Shown here: piece after piece, positions 966 to 39,557 of the stretch
Layout: each line of letters begins with the position of its first letter
How positions within the stretch are numbered: the stretch's first letter is position 1
Assembly (NCBI RefSeq): GCF_900091585.1
Contig: NZ_FMHT01000003.1
Span: 3,153,501 to 3,217,500 of the forward strand
DNA length: 64,000 nt
Reading direction: 5' to 3'
DNA from: Micromonospora nigra
GTDB taxonomy: Bacteria > Actinomycetota > Actinomycetes > Mycobacteriales > Micromonosporaceae
Notes under the pieces: generated by a model
Told to the model about the DNA's origin: nothing
The model's input: the letters and a program-made list of their open reading frames with translations, nothing else
Database searches by the model: none
Made by a program: the position numbers and the translations under genes

Positions 966-3900
966 GTGGCGCAGCTCGCCGGGCTGCGTCAGGCGCGCGG
1001 CCACCTGGAGACCCTGCGGGAGCTGCGGTACGTCGACCACGGCCGGATCGACGAGCTGGCCGCGAAGCTGGACGGGGAGCTGGCGGCGGCGGGCCGGCGG
1101 GCGGTGGGGTTCCTGGGCCGCGACGACGCGTTCGACGGCTACCGGCAGCAGGTGGACCGGCTCGCCGAGCAGGCCGCCGCGATCGGCACGGTGGCCGAGG
1201 CGGCCCCCGTCCGCGATGAGCTGGCCGGCCGGGCGGAGGGCCTGCAGACCATCACCGACGTGGTGGGCGGGTTGGACATCGCCGACGCGACGGTACGCAC
1301 GGGCATCCTGGGCCGGGTCGGCGAGGTGCTCGGCGCGGTCAACCGGGCGCGGGCCGTGCTGGACAACCGTCGCCGGGAGCTGTTCGCGGCGGAGGGACGG
1401 GCCGGCTTCGCCGCCGAGTTCGCCCTGCTGGGCCAGGCGGTGACGGGGGCGCTGGCGGCGGCGGACACCGCCGAGCGCTGCGACGAACAGCTCGGCCGGC
1501 TGCTGCTGCGGGTGGAGGACCTGGAATCCCGGTTCGGGGAGTTCGACGACTTCCTCGCCGAGCTGAGCACCCGGCGTACCGACATCTACGAGGCGTTCTC
1601 GTCGCGCAAGCAGGCGCTGCTGGACGAGCGGGCCCGCCGGGCCGACCGGCTGGTGTCGTCGGCCGAGCGGATCCTGGCCAGCGTGCAGCGACGGGCCGGC
1701 ACCCTCGGCTCCCTCGACGAGATCAACACATACTTCGCGGCCGATCCGATGGTGGGCCGGCTCCGGTCGGTCGTCGCGGAGCTGCGTACCCTCGGCGACC
1801 CGGTGCGGGCCGAGGAACTGGACGGCCGGGTCCGCGCCGCCCGCCAGGAGGCCGGGCGCGGCCTGCGCGACCGCCTCGACCTGTACGCCGACGGCGGCGA
1901 GACGATCCGGTTGGGCCGGCACCGGTTCGCCGTCAACACCCAGCCGCTGGACGTGACGGTGGTGCCGCACGACGGGCTGCTGTCGTTCGCGGTGACCGGC
2001 ACCGACTACCGTGCCCCGATCCGCGACGAGCGGTTCCAGGGCACCCGCCGGTTCGCAGACCGACACCTCGTCTCCGAGTCGCCGCAGGTGTACCGGGCCG
2101 AACACTTGGCCACCTCGATCCTGGCCGCCGCCGAGGCCGGCCGGGACGGGCTCACCCTGGACGCCCTGCACGCCGCCGCGGTGGACGCCGACGGGCTGCG
2201 CGAGCTGGTCCGCCGGGTCGCCGAGACGCGCTACGACGAGGGGTACGAGCGGGGCGTGCACGACCACGACGCCGCCGCGATCCTGGGTACGCTGCTGCGC
2301 CTGCACGCCGGTGCGGACCTGCTGCGCTACCCGCCGGACGCGCGGGCCGCCGCTCAGCTGTGGTGGCGGTACGGCACCGACGAGCCGGCCAGGACGGGCT
2401 GGACGGCACGGGCCGCCTCGCTGGCGCGGGCCCGGGAGCGCTTCGGCCGCCCGGCTCCGGCGCGTACCCCCGGGGAGCCGGGCGGCGACGCGACGCCGGC
2501 GGCCGGCGACGGGCCCGGCGGGGACGCGATCGACCGGCTCTGCGCGGAGCTGGCCGGCGCGGTCGGCGGTTTCCTGCGGGACGCCGGCCTGCCGGGGCCG
2601 GCCGACTCGGCCGGTGAGTACCTGTTCGAGGAGCTGTCCCGCGCGCCCGTCCGGTTCGTCACCGGGGCCGGGGCGCGGGCTCTGCTGGACCGCTTCCGCC
2701 GGGCCCTCGGCGGCGCGCAGTCCCGGTCGGCGCGGGAGTTCGACGACGACCTGCGGGCCCTCGACGGCGACCTGACCAGCCGGTACCAGGTGGTGGAGGC
2801 GTGGCTGACCGCGTTCCTGGCCACCGACGACGCCGGCCTGTCCGGGTACGACCTGCCGGAGGCGGTGGCGGTCGAGCTGTGCGGGTCGGAACCGCCCCGG
2901 GTGGAGTCGACCGCGACGATGACGGGGACCGTCGGCGACCTGCTGGGCGCGCACCCCCGAATCGACGGGTCGGCGCTGACCCTGCGGCTGGACGAGACGC
3001 TGGCCCGCACCCGGCGCTTCCGCACGGTGTGGGTGCCCGCCTACCGCGACTTCCAGCGGCGGCGCAACGCCCTGGTGGACGCCGAACGGGAGCGGCTGCG
3101 GCTCGACGAGTACCGCCCGAAGGTGATGAGCGCCTTCGTCCGCAACCGGCTGCTCGACGAGGTGTACCTGCCGCTGATCGGCGACAACCTGGCCCGGCAG
3201 CTCGGCGCGACCGGCGACGGCAAGCGGGTCGACCAGTCCGGCCTGCTGCTGCTGATCTCGCCGCCCGGCTACGGCAAGACCACCCTGATGGAGTACGTGG
3301 CCAGCCGGCTCGGCCTGGTGTTCGTGAAGGTGAACGGGCCGGCCCTGGGCAGCGGGGTGACTTCGCTGGATCCGGCGGAGGCGCCCGACGCCACGGCCCG
3401 GCAGGAGGTCGAGAAGATCTCCTTCGCGTTGGAGCTGGGCAGCAACGTGCTGCTCTACCTCGACGACATCCAGCACACCAACCCGGAGCTGTTGCAGAAG
3501 TTCATCTCGCTGTGCGACGGGCAGCGGCGCATGGAGGGCGTGTGGGAGGGCCGCACCCGCACGTACGACCTGCGGGGCAAGCGGTTCGCGGTGTGCATGG
3601 CCGGCAACCCGTACACCGAGTCGGGGCAGCGGTTCCGCATCCCCGACATGCTCGCCAACCGGGCCGACGTGTGGAACCTCGGCGACGTGCTGTCCGGGCG
3701 GGAGGAGGTGTTCGCGCTGAGCTACCTGGAGAACGCGCTCACCGCGAACCCCGTGCTGGCCCCGCTCGCGGGGCGGGACCGGGCCGATGTGGAGCTGCTG
3801 GTGCGGATGGCCCGCGGCGACGACTCCGTACGGGCCGACCAGCTGTCGCACCCGTACTCGCCGGTGGAGCTGGAACAGATCGTCGCGGTGCTGCGCAAGC

Positions 3901-4340
3901 TGCTGCGGGTGCAGGAGGTGGTGCTGGCCAACAACCAGGCGTACATCGCCTCGGCGGCGCAGTCCGACGACGCGCGTACCGAACCGCCGTTCCAGCTCCA
4001 GGGGTCGTACCGGAACATGAACAAGCTGGCCGAGCGGGTCGTCCCGGTGCTCACCGACGACGAGTTGGAAGCGGTGATCGACGACCACTACCTGGGGGAG
4101 GCGCAGACCCTGGCGGCGGGCGCGGAGGCGAACCTGCTGAAGCTCGCCGAGCTGCGCGGCCGGCTCACCCCCGACCAGGCCCGCCGCTGGGCCGAGGTGA
4201 AGGCGGCCTTCCAGCGCACGCGGGCGCTGGGCGGGGCGTCCGACGACCCGGTGGACCGCGCGGTGGGCGCGCTGGGGCTGCTGGCCGACCGGGTCGGCGG
4301 GGTGGAGGCCGCCATCGGCCGCGCCGTCGGTCAGCCGTAG
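966..4340 (+). CDS. DNA repair ATPase (DUF3686 type), C-terminal part with the AAA-type ATPase domain
   Basis: This 1124-residue frame continues the preceding fragment. Its first half is helical and coiled-coil-like (RARAVLDNRRRELFAAEGRAGFAAEFALLGQAVTGAL), then a middle domain, then a P-loop ATPase. Walker A is PPGYGKTT at about residues 766-773, and a Walker B-like strand NVLLYLDDIQ lies at about 827. A C-terminal lid region follows (LANRADVWNLGDVLSGREEVF). GTG 966 is the first formal start but has no convincing ribosome binding site, and the coding signal continues upstream of it, which supports the frameshift reading. The 3' end overlaps the convergent acyl-CoA synthetase gene by 10 bases. 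If the frameshift is real, the ATPase may be lost or made as a separate chain. Confidence 0.8.
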   Translation: MAQLAGLRQARGHLETLRELRYVDHGRIDELAAKLDGELAAAGRRAVGFLGRDDAFDGYRQQVDRLAEQAAAIGTVAEAAPVRDELAGRAEGLQTITDVVGGLDIADATVRTGILGRVGEVLGAVNRARAVLDNRRRELFAAEGRAGFAAEFALLGQAVTGALAAADTAERCDEQLGRLLLRVEDLESRFGEFDDFLAELSTRRTDIYEAFSSRKQALLDERARRADRLVSSAERILASVQRRAGTLGSLDEINTYFAADPMVGRLRSVVAELRTLGDPVRAEELDGRVRAARQEAGRGLRDRLDLYADGGETIRLGRHRFAVNTQPLDVTVVPHDGLLSFAVTGTDYRAPIRDERFQGTRRFADRHLVSESPQVYRAEHLATSILAAAEAGRDGLTLDALHAAAVDADGLRELVRRVAETRYDEGYERGVHDHDAAAILGTLLRLHAGADLLRYPPDARAAAQLWWRYGTDEPARTGWTARAASLARARERFGRPAPARTPGEPGGDATPAAGDGPGGDAIDRLCAELAGAVGGFLRDAGLPGPADSAGEYLFEELSRAPVRFVTGAGARALLDRFRRALGGAQSRSAREFDDDLRALDGDLTSRYQVVEAWLTAFLATDDAGLSGYDLPEAVAVELCGSEPPRVESTATMTGTVGDLLGAHPRIDGSALTLRLDETLARTRRFRTVWVPAYRDFQRRRNALVDAERERLRLDEYRPKVMSAFVRNRLLDEVYLPLIGDNLARQLGATGDGKRVDQSGLLLLISPPGYGKTTLMEYVASRLGLVFVKVNGPALGSGVTSLDPAEAPDATARQEVEKISFALELGSNVLLYLDDIQHTNPELLQKFISLCDGQRRMEGVWEGRTRTYDLRGKRFAVCMAGNPYTESGQRFRIPDMLANRADVWNLGDVLSGREEVFALSYLENALTANPVLAPLAGRDRADVELLVRMARGDDSVRADQLSHPYSPVELEQIVAVLRKLLRVQEVVLANNQAYIASAAQSDDARTEPPFQLQGSYRNMNKLAERVVPVLTDDELEAVIDDHYLGEAQTLAAGAEANLLKLAELRGRLTPDQARRWAEVKAAFQRTRALGGASDDPVDRAVGALGLLADRVGGVEAAIGRAVGQP

Positions 4341-10707: not shown

Positions 10708-11682
10708 TTACGGGTTGAGGGTGAAGGGTCGGAAGGTGCGCGGCCCGTAGAGCCGGTGCAGCACCTCGTCGAGTTCGCGCAGCAGCCGCCAGGCGTCGTC
10801 GGGGCGGGCGCGCAGGAACCGTTGCCGGCAGCCCTGGGCGAAGGTGAGCAGTTCGCGCGGGGCGTGGCGGCCCATCAGCCAGGTCATGCACCGGGTGGCC
10901 AGGAAGATGTCGGTGCCCGGCCCGCAGGGGTGGCGGTCGGGGACCTCCGGCGGGTACCAGTCCTCGTGACCGGGCACCATCGCCGGGACGAGGCCGCCGG
11001 GCTCGGCGGAGAAGCACCAGTCGACCAGTACCACCCCGTGCGCGTCGGGTTCGACCAGCACGTGCGGCGGCAGCACCGCGCCGTGCACCACACCCGCCCG
11101 GTGGGCCAGGCCGAGCGCGACCAGCAGTCGCCGCCACATCCACGCCACGTCGCGGGGGTCCAGACCGTCCGGGTACGCGCGCTTCACCTCGACCAGGCTG
11201 CGCAGACCGGGCGCGGTGGCGAGCACGGTGATCCGCCGGTGCGCCCCGGTGGTGGTGTCCCGGTGCGCGAAGCTGTCGACCAGTCGGGGCACGTACGGCA
11301 GCCAGCGGGGGTCGCCCCGCTCGGCGAGGGTGCGCAGGGCCCGCTCCTCGCGGGCCATCAGGTCGTTGTCGTGCGGGTCGCGGGGCAGCTTGAGCAGGCG
11401 GTCCGCGCCGACGTCGTACAGGTCGGCGAGGTCGCCCGAGTACGCGGGCCGGCCGCAGCGGTAGCCGCGCAGCACGGTGATCCCGCGGGACCGCCATCGG
11501 GTGGTGACCCGGACGAAGGCGTCGGAGGCATCGGCGCGGGTCTGCGGGTCGGCCCGGCCGAGCCGGTCGGGGTGCAGGGCGGCGACCAGTTCCCGGTAGC
11601 GGCGTTCCGGCGCGTCGCCGCCGAACAGTTCGTCGTCGTCGCGGGCGGCGGCGACCAGGCGGACGGCCTCCTCGGTTCTCAT
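10708..11682 (-). CDS. J-domain/protein-kinase-like (pseudokinase) fusion
   Basis: The first 60 residues of this 324-residue protein resemble helices II-III of a DnaJ J-domain, with YRELVAALHPDR giving HPD at 37-39. The rest looks like a protein-kinase fold. A beta3 lysine (LLKLPR) and helix-C glutamate (REERAL) are present. The catalytic loop reads HGAVLPPHVLV where kinases have HRDLKPxN, so the catalytic Asp is Ala and the Asn is His; the metal motif is DWC for DFG. This argues for a pseudokinase that binds rather than phosphorylates. Its ATG overlaps the Nudix stop (ATGA), and GAGGAG lies upstream. The J-domain call rests on one motif. Confidence 0.68.
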   Translation of the reverse strand: MRTEEAVRLVAAARDDDELFGGDAPERRYRELVAALHPDRLGRADPQTRADASDAFVRVTTRWRSRGITVLRGYRCGRPAYSGDLADLYDVGADRLLKLPRDPHDNDLMAREERALRTLAERGDPRWLPYVPRLVDSFAHRDTTTGAHRRITVLATAPGLRSLVEVKRAYPDGLDPRDVAWMWRRLLVALGLAHRAGVVHGAVLPPHVLVEPDAHGVVLVDWCFSAEPGGLVPAMVPGHEDWYPPEVPDRHPCGPGTDIFLATRCMTWLMGRHAPRELLTFAQGCRQRFLRARPDDAWRLLRELDEVLHRLYGPRTFRPFTLNP

Positions 11683-12431
11683 CGCGCGGTCTCCTCACGG
11701 GCGGGGCGCAGCAGCGCCGGGTGCAGCAGCCGGGCGTCGCCGGCCCGGTAGAGCCGGGCCCGCGGGCCGCCCCGGGCCCCGCCGCGCTCGGTGCTGGTGC
11801 CGGTGCCCTCGACGAAGCCCGGCACGGAGAGCACCTTGCGGTGGAAGTTGCCGGCGTGCACCGGGTGGCCCCAGACCGTCTCGTAGACGGCCCGCAGGTC
11901 GCCGATGGTGAACTCGGTGGCCAGGAATCGGGTGGCCAGCGGCGTGTATTCCAGCTTGGAGCGGGCCCGCTCCAGGGCGTCGTCGACGATCCGGCCGTGG
12001 TCGAAGGCGAGCGGCCGGGCGGTCAGCCCGGCGACGGGCACCCAGGCCGCCTCGGCGGCGTCGGTGCCGGCGGCGGGGTCGGGCAGGTCGGGGGCGAAGG
12101 CGAGATGGGCGACGGAGACGACGCGCATCCGGGGGTCGCGGTCCGGAGCGCCGTAGCTGGCCAGCTGCTCCAGGTGGACGCGGCGCAGCCGCTCACCGCC
12201 GAGGCCGGTCTCCTCGGCCAGCTCGCGTCGGGCGGCGTCGGTCAGGTCCTCGTCGGGGCGGACGAAGCCGCCGGGCAGCGCCCAGTGGCCCGCGTACGGC
12301 TGTTCGGCGCGGCGGATCAGCAGCAGGTGCAGAGAGGCGTCGCGGATGGTCAGGGCGACCACGTCCACGGTGACCGCGACGGCGGGGTAGGCGCGCGGGT
12401 CGTAGTCGGCGAGGAAGTCCTGCTCGTTCAC
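11679..12431 (-). CDS. NrtR-like regulator: Nudix domain plus winged helix
   Basis: A 250-residue protein with an N-terminal Nudix domain and a C-terminal winged-helix-like region (FTIGDLRAVYETVWGHPVHAGNFHRKVLSVPGFVE), the architecture of NrtR regulators that sense ADP-ribose and control NAD metabolism. The Nudix box GFVRPDEDLTDAARRELAEETGL keeps all catalytic positions, so hydrolysis is possible. GTG 12431 is the start, with GGAG upstream. It heads the operon with the J-domain/pseudokinase, VWA and PurA-like genes and probably controls it. The direct repeat just upstream is a candidate binding site. Confidence 0.82.
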   Translation of the reverse strand: MNEQDFLADYDPRAYPAVAVTVDVVALTIRDASLHLLLIRRAEQPYAGHWALPGGFVRPDEDLTDAARRELAEETGLGGERLRRVHLEQLASYGAPDRDPRMRVVSVAHLAFAPDLPDPAAGTDAAEAAWVPVAGLTARPLAFDHGRIVDDALERARSKLEYTPLATRFLATEFTIGDLRAVYETVWGHPVHAGNFHRKVLSVPGFVEGTGTSTERGGARGGPRARLYRAGDARLLHPALLRPAREETAR

Positions 12432-35995: not shown

Positions 35996-36292
35996 TCAGA
36001 CCCGCACGGTCGGGGGGAGTTCCTCGGGCGGCAGGCCGCCGTCACCGTCGACCACCTCGTCGGGCGTGCCGTCCTCGTCGATGTCGACCATCGTGATGTC
36101 GACCTTGCCGTCCCCGTCGGTGTCGAACTGGAACAGGTCCGCCTTGCCGTCGCCGTCGGTGTCGACCACCCACACGTCGGTCTTCCCGTCGTTGTTGGTG
36201 TCGGCGCGCAGCAGCTCCACGCGCTCGTCGCCGCGGGTCTCCACGGTCTCCTCGGTGCCCACGCCGTCCACGGTCTCCGGTGCCTGGCTCAT
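35996..36292 (-). CDS. Small acidic protein with four DxDxDG calcium-loop-like repeats
   Basis: A 98-residue protein without signal peptide. After a short acidic lead it has four consecutive loops, DTNNDGKTDVW, DTDGDGKADLF, DTDGDGKVDIT and DIDEDGTPDEV, spaced 11-13 residues apart. This spacing is like dockerin or thrombospondin type-3 calcium repeats and unlike paired EF hands. Such repeats are usually extracellular, which makes the missing export signal notable. ATG 36292 has GAAGGAC upstream. No partner is evident. Confidence 0.78.
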   Translation of the reverse strand: MSQAPETVDGVGTEETVETRGDERVELLRADTNNDGKTDVWVVDTDGDGKADLFQFDTDGDGKVDITMVDIDEDGTPDEVVDGDGGLPPEELPPTVRV

Positions 36293-36384
36293 CTGTCCGT
36301 CCTTCCCTCGGTTGCGGCCGTCTGTACCCGCTCCCGCTCGCCCCCACGCATCAGGGCCGGACCGATGCTGCATAGGGTCGCACC

Positions 36385-37326
36385 ATGACTGAGCGGAGCG
36401 GACCGACCGGACGGCCCGACGCGGCGGAGACCCCGCGCGTCGCCGACGGCGGCATCAGCGAGCGGTTCGTGGTCGTCGGGGCCGGCACGATGGGCCTCGG
36501 CATCGCGTACGTGGCGGCCGGAGCCGGATACGCGGTGGACCTGGTCGAGGTGGACCGGGACCGGGGCGCGGCGGCCCTGGACAGGTTGACCGAACTCGGG
36601 CACAAGGCGGTGCGCAGGGGCAACCTGACCGCACAGGAGGCCGCCGCGAACCGGGAGCGGATCACCCTGCGCGGCACGCTGACCGAGGTCGCCGAGGGGC
36701 CGGACGTCGTCGTGGAGGCCGTACCGGAGCGGCTGGAGCTGAAGCGGACGGTGCTGCGCGCCGCCGAGGCGCTGCGCCCGGCGCTGCTGGGCAGCAACAC
36801 CTCCAGCATCGCGATCGGCGAGCTGGCCGCCGGGCTGGACCACCCGCAACGGTTCTGCGGGCTGCACTTCTTCAACCCCGTCTGGACGATGGCGCTGCTG
36901 GAGGTGGTGGTCGGCGCGGCCACCGCCCCGGAGACCGCCGACGCCGCCGTGACGCTCGCCGGCCGGCTGGGCAAGGACCCCGTCGTCGTACGCGACATGC
37001 CCGGCTTCGCCACCTCACGCCTCGGGGTGACCCTCGGGCTGGAGGCGATCCGGATGGTCGCCGACGGGGTGGCCTCACCGGCCGACATCGACAAGGCCAT
37101 GACGCTCGGCTACCGGCACCCCGTCGGGCCGCTGGAGCTGACCGACCTCGTCGGCCTGGACGTGCGCCTCGACATCGCCCGCACCCTCCAGGCCGCGTAC
37201 GGGGACCGGTTCGCGCCGCCCCCGCTGCTGGAGGAGATGGTCGCCGCCGGGCGGCTGGGCCGCAAGACCGGCCACGGCTTCTACCGCTGGGAGAACGGCG
37301 TCAAGGTGACGGAGGTGGGTCGGTGA
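36385..37326 (+). CDS. 3-hydroxyacyl-CoA dehydrogenase
   Basis: A 313-residue NAD-dependent enzyme oxidising 3-hydroxyacyl-CoA to 3-ketoacyl-CoA. It has the Rossmann loop VVGAGTMGLGIAYVAA, GSNTSSIAIGELA, the catalytic-His region GLHFFNPVWTMALLEVV and C-terminal MTLGYRHPVGPLELTDLVGLDVRL. It is similar in size to 3-hydroxybutyryl-CoA dehydrogenases (Hbd/FadB2). Its stop overlaps the enoyl-CoA hydratase start (GTGA), so the pair act in sequence. Confidence 0.9.
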   Translation: MTERSGPTGRPDAAETPRVADGGISERFVVVGAGTMGLGIAYVAAGAGYAVDLVEVDRDRGAAALDRLTELGHKAVRRGNLTAQEAAANRERITLRGTLTEVAEGPDVVVEAVPERLELKRTVLRAAEALRPALLGSNTSSIAIGELAAGLDHPQRFCGLHFFNPVWTMALLEVVVGAATAPETADAAVTLAGRLGKDPVVVRDMPGFATSRLGVTLGLEAIRMVADGVASPADIDKAMTLGYRHPVGPLELTDLVGLDVRLDIARTLQAAYGDRFAPPPLLEEMVAAGRLGRKTGHGFYRWENGVKVTEVGR

Positions 37327-38069
37327 GCGGGGGGCTGCGGGTCGACGACCTGCCCGACCGGCTGGTGGTCACCCTGGACCGGCCGGAGAAGCGCAACGCC
37401 ATCGACGCCGACCTGATCGGCGCGTTGCACGAGGTGTGTGCCGAACTGGAGGCCCGGCCCCGGCTGCTGCTGCTCACCGGCGGCGTCGAGGGCATCTTCG
37501 CCGGCGGGGCGGACATCGCCCAGCTGCGGGAACGCGGGCGACTCGACGCCCTCGCGGCGATCAACCAGGCGGCGTTCGCCCGGATCCGGGCGCTGCCGAT
37601 GCCGACCGTCGCGGCCGTCGACGGGCCGGCGCTGGGCGGCGGCGCCGAGCTGGCGTACGCGTGTGACCTGCGGGTGTGCACGGCGCGGGCGGTGTTCGGC
37701 CAGCCCGAGGTGCGGCTGGGCATCCTGGCCGGGGCCGGCGCGACACACCGGCTGCCGGTGCTGGTCGGTGAGGCCCGCGCCAAGGAGCTGCTGTTCACCG
37801 GCCGGCGGGTGGACGCCGAGGAGGCGCTGCGGATCGGCCTGGTCAACCGGGTGGTGGCCGAGCCGGCGGAACTGCTGCCGGTCGCCCACCAGCTGCTCGA
37901 CGAGATCGCGAAGGGCTCGGCCCTGGCGGTGCGGCTGACCAAACTGGCCGTGGACGCGCCGCCGGCCGCCCACCCGCACCTCGACCTGGTGAGCCAGGCG
38001 GTGCTCTTCGAGGACGAGGAGAAGCACCGCCGGATGACCGAGTTCCTGGACCGCCGCCGCGCCCGCTGA
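37323..38069 (+). CDS. Enoyl-CoA hydratase/isomerase family protein
   Basis: A 248-residue crotonase-fold protein: LDRPEKRNAIDADL, the oxyanion-hole region GGVEGIFAGGADI and ALGGGAELAYACDLRVCTARAVFGQPEVRLGILAGAG. A glutamate at the usual acid/base position (QPEV) supports hydratase activity. Start GTG 37323 overlaps the dehydrogenase gene by four bases. The two would carry out consecutive beta-oxidation steps. A strong terminator follows. Confidence 0.9.
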   Translation: MSGGLRVDDLPDRLVVTLDRPEKRNAIDADLIGALHEVCAELEARPRLLLLTGGVEGIFAGGADIAQLRERGRLDALAAINQAAFARIRALPMPTVAAVDGPALGGGAELAYACDLRVCTARAVFGQPEVRLGILAGAGATHRLPVLVGEARAKELLFTGRRVDAEEALRIGLVNRVVAEPAELLPVAHQLLDEIAKGSALAVRLTKLAVDAPPAAHPHLDLVSQAVLFEDEEKHRRMTEFLDRRRAR

Positions 38070-38222: not shown

Positions 38223-39557
38223 TCACTGCCGGATCTGCACCCCGGCGTCGGCGAGCGCCCGGATCACCGCGGCGGACTCGCTGAAGCCGATGATCAGAAC
38301 GGCTTCCGCGCCGAAGTCCTTGATCTGCTTCGCGCCGTCGGTGAAGTTCACCGGGTTGGCCTTGGCGTCCTCCGGCGGGTCGTAGGTCAGCAACTTCACC
38401 CGGTCGGCACCGAGGCCGGCCCGCTCCAGTTCGGTGCGGACCGTGTTCTGCAGCCCCTCGCCGTAGGAGTCCCGGCGGGCGACGATCGCGACCTTCTGCG
38501 GGCCGTCGCGGAGGATGACGTCGGCCAGCGCCCGGCCCTGGAGGCTGTCCGGCGGGGAGGTACGGAAGTAGAGCCCGTCGTCGTCCAGCTCGGTGAGGCT
38601 CGCGTCGGTGTTCGACGGCGAGAACAGGACCAGGCCCGCACTGACCACGTCGGGCAGCACGGCGCGGGAGATGCCCGAGGCGCCGGCGCCGATGATGACG
38701 TGGACACCGGCCTGGACGTGTTCCGCCACGGTGGCCTTGGCGACCGCCGGGTTGGTGCCGTCGTCGCCGTCGATCCACTTGACCGGCTCGCCCAGCACGC
38801 CGCCGGCCGCGTTGATCTCCTTGATCGCCAACGCCGCCCCGGCACCCAGCGGGGGGTAGGCCAGCGCCAGGTCACCGGTCTTGGGCAGCAACCCGCCCAG
38901 GACCAGCGGACCGTCGGCCCCCGCGGCACCGGGCTTCGGCTTCGGTGGGGCCTTGGTGCTGGCCGCCGACTCGTCACCGGCACCCACGAACTCCGTCTTG
39001 GCGTCGTTGAGCTGTTGACCGTCGAAGTGCAGGGTGGCGTAGCTGGCGGTGGCCGGTTCGCCGGCGTCGGTGAACCCGGCCCGGGTCATCGAGACGCTGC
39101 GGTACTCCACGTCCCGGCCCGAACGGGCCGCCGCCAGGCAGTCCTTCGCGTTCTCACAGCGCACCCCCCGGTTGGTCACGCCGACGATCTGCCGGGCGAT
39201 GGCCGCCGGGTCGGTGGTGCCGGCCAGCTCGGCGGCGAGCGCGCTGATCAGCACGGCGTCGTACGCCTCGGCGGAGTAGAGGAAGTCGGTCAGCTGCGGG
39301 TTCACCGTCCGGAGCCGGTTCTTGAAGGCGTCGGGCAGCGGGGTGAGCGGGGTGGTGCCCTTCATGCCATCGACCAGCCCGGCACGGTCCCCCAGCTCCG
39401 CTGGGTACGTGTTGAGCATGTTGCCGTCCGTGCCGTAGAGGCGTACCGGCGTGGTTACCGGCTCCTCTGGCTGGTCCGTTCCGCAAGCGCTGGTGGCGAG
39501 CAGGAACGTGGCACAGGCGGCCGTGATGACCGTCCGCGCCCCGCGTGACATGTGCAT
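38223..39557 (-). CDS. ABC-transporter solute-binding lipoprotein (LivJ-like), halves in circularly permuted order
   Basis: A 444-residue lipoprotein with signal and lipobox LLATSAC. Residues about 33-190 (RLYGTDGNM... DAFKNRLRTVNPQLTDFLYSAEAYDAVLISALAAELAG... FTDAGEPATASYATLHFDG) resemble the second, C-terminal half of branched-chain amino-acid-type binding proteins. After a linker (STKAPPKPKPGAAG), residues about 215-444 resemble the first half (LVLGGLLPKTGDLALAYPPLGAGAALAIKEINAAGGVLG... IGFSESAAVIRALADAGVQIRQ). The C-terminal end would normally run straight into the N-terminal half. ATG 39557 has AAGGA upstream. No permease or ATPase gene is adjacent. Confidence 0.83.
   Translation of the reverse strand: MHMSRGARTVITAACATFLLATSACGTDQPEEPVTTPVRLYGTDGNMLNTYPAELGDRAGLVDGMKGTTPLTPLPDAFKNRLRTVNPQLTDFLYSAEAYDAVLISALAAELAGTTDPAAIARQIVGVTNRGVRCENAKDCLAAARSGRDVEYRSVSMTRAGFTDAGEPATASYATLHFDGQQLNDAKTEFVGAGDESAASTKAPPKPKPGAAGADGPLVLGGLLPKTGDLALAYPPLGAGAALAIKEINAAGGVLGEPVKWIDGDDGTNPAVAKATVAEHVQAGVHVIIGAGASGISRAVLPDVVSAGLVLFSPSNTDASLTELDDDGLYFRTSPPDSLQGRALADVILRDGPQKVAIVARRDSYGEGLQNTVRTELERAGLGADRVKLLTYDPPEDAKANPVNFTDGAKQIKDFGAEAVLIIGFSESAAVIRALADAGVQIRQ

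Follow-up and report, generated by a model that had tools for sequence, protein, structure and literature searches.

Natural circular permutations are usually single and ancient, and are hard to reconstruct. A survey of the open-access PMC literature returned a single type I binding protein that is naturally permuted, TpMglB-2 (Tp0684) of Treponema pallidum, and neither a permuted LivJ-type protein nor repeated permutation within a binding-protein family. TpMglB-2 is a lipid-anchored natural circular permutant, proposed as Type Ic / Cluster Bc, which binds D-glucose and changes conformation; the first three strands of its N-lobe are relocated to the C-terminus, in many Gram-positive bacteria and in other treponemes putative sugar-binding proteins are reported to have the same topology, and its authors suggest that tethering may favour permutation (PMC4990184). 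Excerpts of two further sources describe circular-permutation relations among glycine-betaine- and molybdate-binding proteins and CysB, found by structure at below 24% identity using CPSARST (PMC2395249), and permutation by duplication in swaposins and DNA methyltransferases (PMC3320104). Here, the product of positions 38223-39557 (reverse strand) of a 64,000-nucleotide stretch of the Micromonospora nigra contig NZ_FMHT01000003.1, hereafter the window, was analysed and confirmed to be a circularly permuted solute-binding protein of the LivJ type, from a subfamily in which the same rearrangement probably arose repeatedly in actinobacteria. The protein is composed as follows, with confidence given as predicted local distance difference test (pLDDT) values and L-numbers denoting individual loci.

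38223..39557, reverse strand: circularly permuted PF13458 solute-binding lipoprotein of 444 residues (open reading frame; BLAST of the halves, Smith-Waterman rotation scan and Pfam)
39483..39557, reverse strand: putative signal peptide, residues 1-25, with the lipobox-like TSAC and Cys25 (sequence and the lipobox motif rule)
39450..39482, reverse strand: short tether, residues 26-36, mostly of low pLDDT (segment 1-34 below 50)
38970..39449, reverse strand: residues 37-196, the C-terminal part of the canonical order moved to the front, starting PVRLYGTDGN (48.6% identical to the C-terminal part of the unpermuted sister L080)
38916..38969, reverse strand: residues 197-214, a Pro/Lys linker that connects the former C- and N-termini (evident from the sequence; pLDDT averages 51-53 in blocks 191-210)
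38226..38915, reverse strand: residues 215-444, the N-terminal part of the canonical order moved to the end, ending ADAGVQIRQ (PF13458 positions 3-216; matched structurally to 3ipc residues 1-221)

In its native order the 444-residue protein matched PF13458 with residues 219-441 only (profile positions 3-216 of 343; 119.1 bits, cut-off 31.7), so that no co-linear alignment spanned the full protein, whereas the de-permuted sequence matched in a single stretch over positions 3-317 of 343 with 134.3 bits. The Pfam families matched were PF13458, PF01094 and PF13433 only, and in a sequence search of the PDB with the native protein each of the 34 matches had its best stretch inside residues 205-441. 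Upon rotation the Smith-Waterman score against L080 rose from 497 to 787, the best rotation beginning at residues 192-195, immediately ahead of the linker; the same procedure, carried out for each protein against one unpermuted reference, yielded gains of 290-523 in nine of nine permuted proteins and of 0 in three of three unpermuted controls. A rotation scan with a hidden Markov model (HMM) raised the window protein from 233 to 363 bits and gave a clear gain for five of the ten permuted proteins, this one included. At the junction, ...ADAGVQIRQ and PVRLYGTDGN jointly stand for an unbroken stretch like ...EVGIGPSDGMLVYGVDGN in unpermuted proteins, without overlap and with every conserved residue present. 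The order proposed in the initial annotation, with the C-terminal half behind the lipobox, the Pro/Lys linker next and the N-terminal half last, was thus borne out by the reading frame, Pfam and rotation, as were its statement that the halves neither overlap nor leave a gap and its interpretation as a circular permutation of a LivJ-type lipoprotein.

The position of the cut was compared across 52 of 53 permuted rows (L170_P was left out, and the Asp landmark of L055_P is mis-set). In unpermuted proteins the chain is continuous through ...AGIGP-xx-xxLYxVDGN...; the permuted proteins of the three clades A, B and C described below end 1-4 residues past GIGP or its equivalent (nine in L065), with termini such as ...GVQIRQ, ...GIGPNS and ...GIGQGS, and start after lipobox and tether with ...VRLYGTDGN, ...GTPLYLVDGN, ...GTQLYFVDGN or variants. 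The cut corresponds approximately to PF13458 position 216. In a structural comparison the last residues of the window model aligned with residue 221 of 3ipc (entry numbering), and the DG motif of 3ipc that aligns to the family DGN lies at approximately sequence position 226, in a numbering that may differ from that of the entry. By homology, the new termini are placed at the lobe2-to-lobe1 hinge crossing, just ahead of the conserved DGN Asp (Glu in E. coli LivJ), which we take to contact the ligand. The conserved motif residues are retained, and a lipobox-like motif, defined by a loose pattern, was present in 100 of 100 permuted open reading frame copies (duplicates included) and 40 of 42 unpermuted ones. 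With the old N- and C-termini joined through the Pro/Lys linker, the usual two-lobed Venus flytrap fold would most likely form and bind a small amino-acid-like ligand, and the lipid tether, formerly at the start of lobe 1, would enter at the hinge; we infer both the lipidation and the closing of the lobes on an amino-acid-like ligand.

Several observations weigh against this assignment. The best single-domain gain in the HMM rotation was at most 1.5 bits in five of the ten permuted proteins (L069, L121, L123, L196 and L170), fold searches aligned residues 215-444 almost exclusively and hardly any of residues 37-196, model confidence for residues 37-196 was mixed, and the structure model of the unpermuted relative L203 was poor (pLDDT 47). 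However, all five proteins gained in the Smith-Waterman rotation, which was run after the HMM scan, and we think that the small gains reflect HMMER splitting the match; the silence of the fold searches on residues 37-196 is no evidence about that part. It is considered very probable that the protein represents a genuine case of natural circular permutation in a lipid-anchored type I LivJ/PF13458 protein, with a likely Venus flytrap fold and an amino-acid-like ligand.

A misassembly or chimeric contig would make the swapped order artefactual, and the odd order itself is all that speaks for it. All 36 other genomes of the same genus that were searched match with the identical order of halves, 35 of them at full length and ten of these on a single contig; the linker joins the same halves in these 35, which excludes a misassembly at 38910-38975, the region that the initial annotation had singled out. 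The remaining genome (G014), a draft of 890 contigs, shows the same order in two overlapping reading frames with a frame break in the linker (L066), the sole copy among the 36 outside a single frame. Across the window's family (f1, probably Micromonosporaceae), 232 of 300 genomes in 33 of 44 genera match at E<=1e-15, permuted and non-permuted matches being mixed, and the other 11 of the 44 genera sampled gave no match at this threshold; a full-length permuted copy was found in 28 of 32 family genomes examined closely, one per genus, picked since they already matched in the 300-genome search. Because the swapped order is conserved across independent genomes of the genus and the family, many on single contigs, and in other families as well, misassembly is rejected as having practically no probability. 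A split, two-protein ancestor was also considered and discarded, as among the loci tested separate-frame halves occur only in the draft G014 (L066), and G1182 (L186) shows a single half merely because its contig ends. Between the window gene and six genes of the same genus, the nonsynonymous rate (dN) was 0.13-0.17 and the synonymous rate (dS) 0.40-0.60, with dN/dS of approximately 0.25-0.34; by this measure the window gene is under purifying selection.

Permuted and unpermuted genes were parted cleanly by BLAST of the two halves against the fetched loci, giving a first set of 79 permuted and 41 unpermuted genes after duplicate removal. Unpermuted relatives are present as the sisters L077-L084 (families f8, f10 and f15), which are 40-49% identical to the window protein in both halves, and permuted and unpermuted genes occur together in four genomes of the window's family (G065, G074, G082 and G103). 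Closer pairs exist elsewhere: the permuted L123 is 67-75% identical to the unpermuted L161-L167, and both adjoin the same kind of transporter operon. Among Nocardioidaceae (f41), matches at E<=1e-60 were found in 100 of 197 genomes; 13 of these have full-length permuted genes and the other 87 match by halves only. Genera g148 and g218 hold both forms among the fetched loci, and so does g160, judged from the match pattern. In f49, 65 of 85 genomes match, with ten full-length permuted genes and two truncated by contig ends, and in f39 four of four are permuted.

A search of 396 genomes of the phylum returned 38 matches at E<=1e-50 and, in other classes (f68, f81 and f122), six further permuted genes with a second cut site. 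These end in ...DGNMGNALGENFDAGK or similar and start with ...GELEGMKGTTP or similar, which places the cut approximately 20 residues downstream of the first, past the hinge strand.

In a 127-row tree of the re-ordered proteins, three permuted clades were recovered, each among unpermuted proteins: clade A with f1, f16 (which we take to be probably Geodermatophilaceae) and f13 (support 95/80), clade B with f39 and f49 (98/85), and clade C with Nocardioidaceae, Nonomuraea and Streptomyces (99/94). Three changes between the permuted and unpermuted states are forced by starred branches of this tree. Placing all permuted rows in one group was rejected (p=1.5e-43, 96 rows), as were, by the approximately unbiased test on 58 rows, the pairwise unions A+B (1.1e-74), B+C (2.7e-57) and A+C (4.6e-7). 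Clade A is a single group in the 96- and 127-row trees and is split in the 58- and 77-row trees, the window's family joining unpermuted f8/f15 at 90/75 in the latter; a single clade A was not rejected (p=0.25). In the 77-row tree starred branches force five changes, or six if the two cut sites are taken as separate states, and the two groups with the second site are split, although their union was not rejected (p=0.11). The permuted forms are thus, on these trees, polyphyletic, with at least four permutation events unless some changes are reversals; four rather than five or six are claimed because clade A and the second-site groups may each be one. Within clade C, the permuted Streptomyces and Nonomuraea genes in the tree (L196, L201 and L202) nest within the Nocardioidaceae, and L196, L199-L202 and L208 are 64-68% identical to L123, which suggests horizontal transfer of permuted genes to these two genera.

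Alternatively, a single ancient permutation may have been followed by exact reversals in many lineages, or gene conversion may have replaced halves under a shared permuted frame. Gains and losses are indistinguishable in the trees, whose root is unsure; if the root fell among the permuted forms, a comparable number of changes would be possible. Clades A, B and C also share nearly the same cut site. Five paralogues from the window genome, used as an outgroup, were too distant (end branches of 1.2-10 changes per site) and settled nothing. Against a single origin stand the canonical order of the Pfam profile and PDB relatives of the family, the nesting of permuted Nocardioidaceae with unpermuted ones, the second cut site and the retained old C-termini, which by eye are lineage-specific. 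Trees of each half alone also keep the permuted groups largely apart, with four and five changes, of which starred branches force three and two, although these trees are poorly resolved. A single ancient permutation is therefore regarded as improbable, and all events are read as gains because the rest of PF13458 is canonical in order.

Gene neighbourhoods were derived from crude gene calls. Convergent genes of the LivF, LivG, LivH and LivM type adjoin the unpermuted genes and most permuted genes outside the window's family, and the other flank frequently carries a gene for an ANTAR response regulator; Pfam was used to check ten proteins, of which eight came from three loci of this kind. An ATP-binding cassette (ABC) ATPase motif was found within 6.5 kb of 72 of 74 unpermuted and 41 of 42 permuted genes (6/7 in f16/f13, 9/9 in clade B and 26/26 in clade C), as counted by motif and by gene rather than genome, with loci below 8 kb omitted and three f41 genomes counted twice. 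Five of the six second-site genes are likewise linked, and the sixth (L210) lies on a contig below 10 kb. Outside the window's family, the permuted protein thus apparently takes the place of its canonical counterpart at this transporter.

In the window's family, no permuted gene (0/26) has such a motif within 6.5 kb, the window copy is without a nearby transporter gene, and the best match in the window genome to the linked LivH reaches only E 6.8e-37; the latter two points weigh against the assignment above. A close LivH homologue (E 5.9e-104 to 3.8e-115) was found in six of 16 genomes tested and was absent from ten of the 14 tested genomes of the window's family. Because none of the 26 loci adjoins ABC genes, the family's copy is, by gene neighbourhood, an orphan; the linked transporter would have been lost, and the protein would serve an unlinked importer or a sensing role. 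Together with the long stem branch (0.56) of the permuted clade in this family, the missing linkage and the absent LivH homologues leave a somewhat less than even chance that the protein has ceased to be a transporter subunit and is instead an orphan receptor or a decaying relic. Decay is unlikely because the gene is conserved in 36 of 36 same-genus genomes, is under purifying selection and retains its motif residues, and against an orphan receptor it may be said that orphan binding proteins may also serve unlinked importers.

Adjacent to the gene, window positions 36385-38069 (forward strand) carry genes for a 3-hydroxyacyl-CoA dehydrogenase and an enoyl-CoA hydratase that converge with it, a pair also present in five fetched family loci (L100, L101, L102, L110 and L112). 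Positions 35996-36373 (reverse strand) encode a small protein whose repeated DTDGDGKAD-type motifs are similar to calcium-binding repeats and which is conserved close to the permuted gene at several loci of the family. In L110 the permuted gene has downstream of it a PrsW-type intramembrane protease gene, identified by Pfam (11063-12415, reverse strand), and membrane-protein genes of similar size follow the permuted gene in several other family genera according to the crude gene calls.

The permutation would have proceeded by tandem duplication, then in-frame fusion of the old C-terminus to the old N-terminus and finally trimming of the outer N- and C-terminal pieces. Tandem unpermuted copies occur (L126, L127, L168, L169, L176, L177, L188 and L189), and in L170 (G1178) a permuted and an unpermuted gene lie in tandem on the same strand as consecutive open frames (1056-2483 and 2487-3989) with a stop codon between them. 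However, no fusion intermediate of 1.5 or two copies was found among the loci tested, a set that excludes L210-L229, so that the duplication route stays a proposal. Taken as a whole, it is considered likely that this actinobacterial LivJ-type subfamily is a permutation hot spot. Four or more independent permutations would have occurred, at two cut sites that flank the hinge strand and lie approximately 20 residues from each other; most would have happened in place, next to Liv transporter genes of the same kind, and both forms still coexist within single genera of Nocardioidaceae. Tandem duplicates at the locus would have supplied the raw material, and the shift of the anchor to the hinge would be neutral or repeatedly favoured.

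Close permuted and unpermuted pairs, several origins and nearby tandem copies make the route of permutation directly testable, and the natural pairs do the same for its effects on folding, ligand affinity, permease docking and anchoring. The halves apparently having been swapped several separate times at nearly the same spot, the subfamily offers a natural guide to cut-and-rejoin positions and evolution-tested cut sites for a protein class used in biosensors.

Like the Leu/Ile/Val-type proteins 3ipc (Atu2422), 4n0q and 2liv, the window protein belongs to PF13458 and shares the fold of the larger half and the DG motif past the hinge (3ipc), but these are canonical in order and it is permuted. 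The glycine-betaine- and molybdate-binding proteins and CysB are presumably of the type II fold, unlike the window protein. They resemble it in showing permutation relations among binding proteins (PMC2395249), and the duplication route described for swaposins and DNA methyltransferases, unrelated proteins, is the same general route as proposed here (PMC3320104). Like TpMglB-2, the window protein is a circularly permuted type I binding protein with a lipobox-like motif; the consulted sections on TpMglB-2 contain nothing on repeated origins or syntenic unpermuted orthologues, and they place it in the MglB sugar-binding family with its N-lobe cut after the third strand, whereas the window protein matches PF13458, PF01094 and PF13433 alone and is cut at the lobe2-to-lobe1 hinge crossing (PMC4990184).
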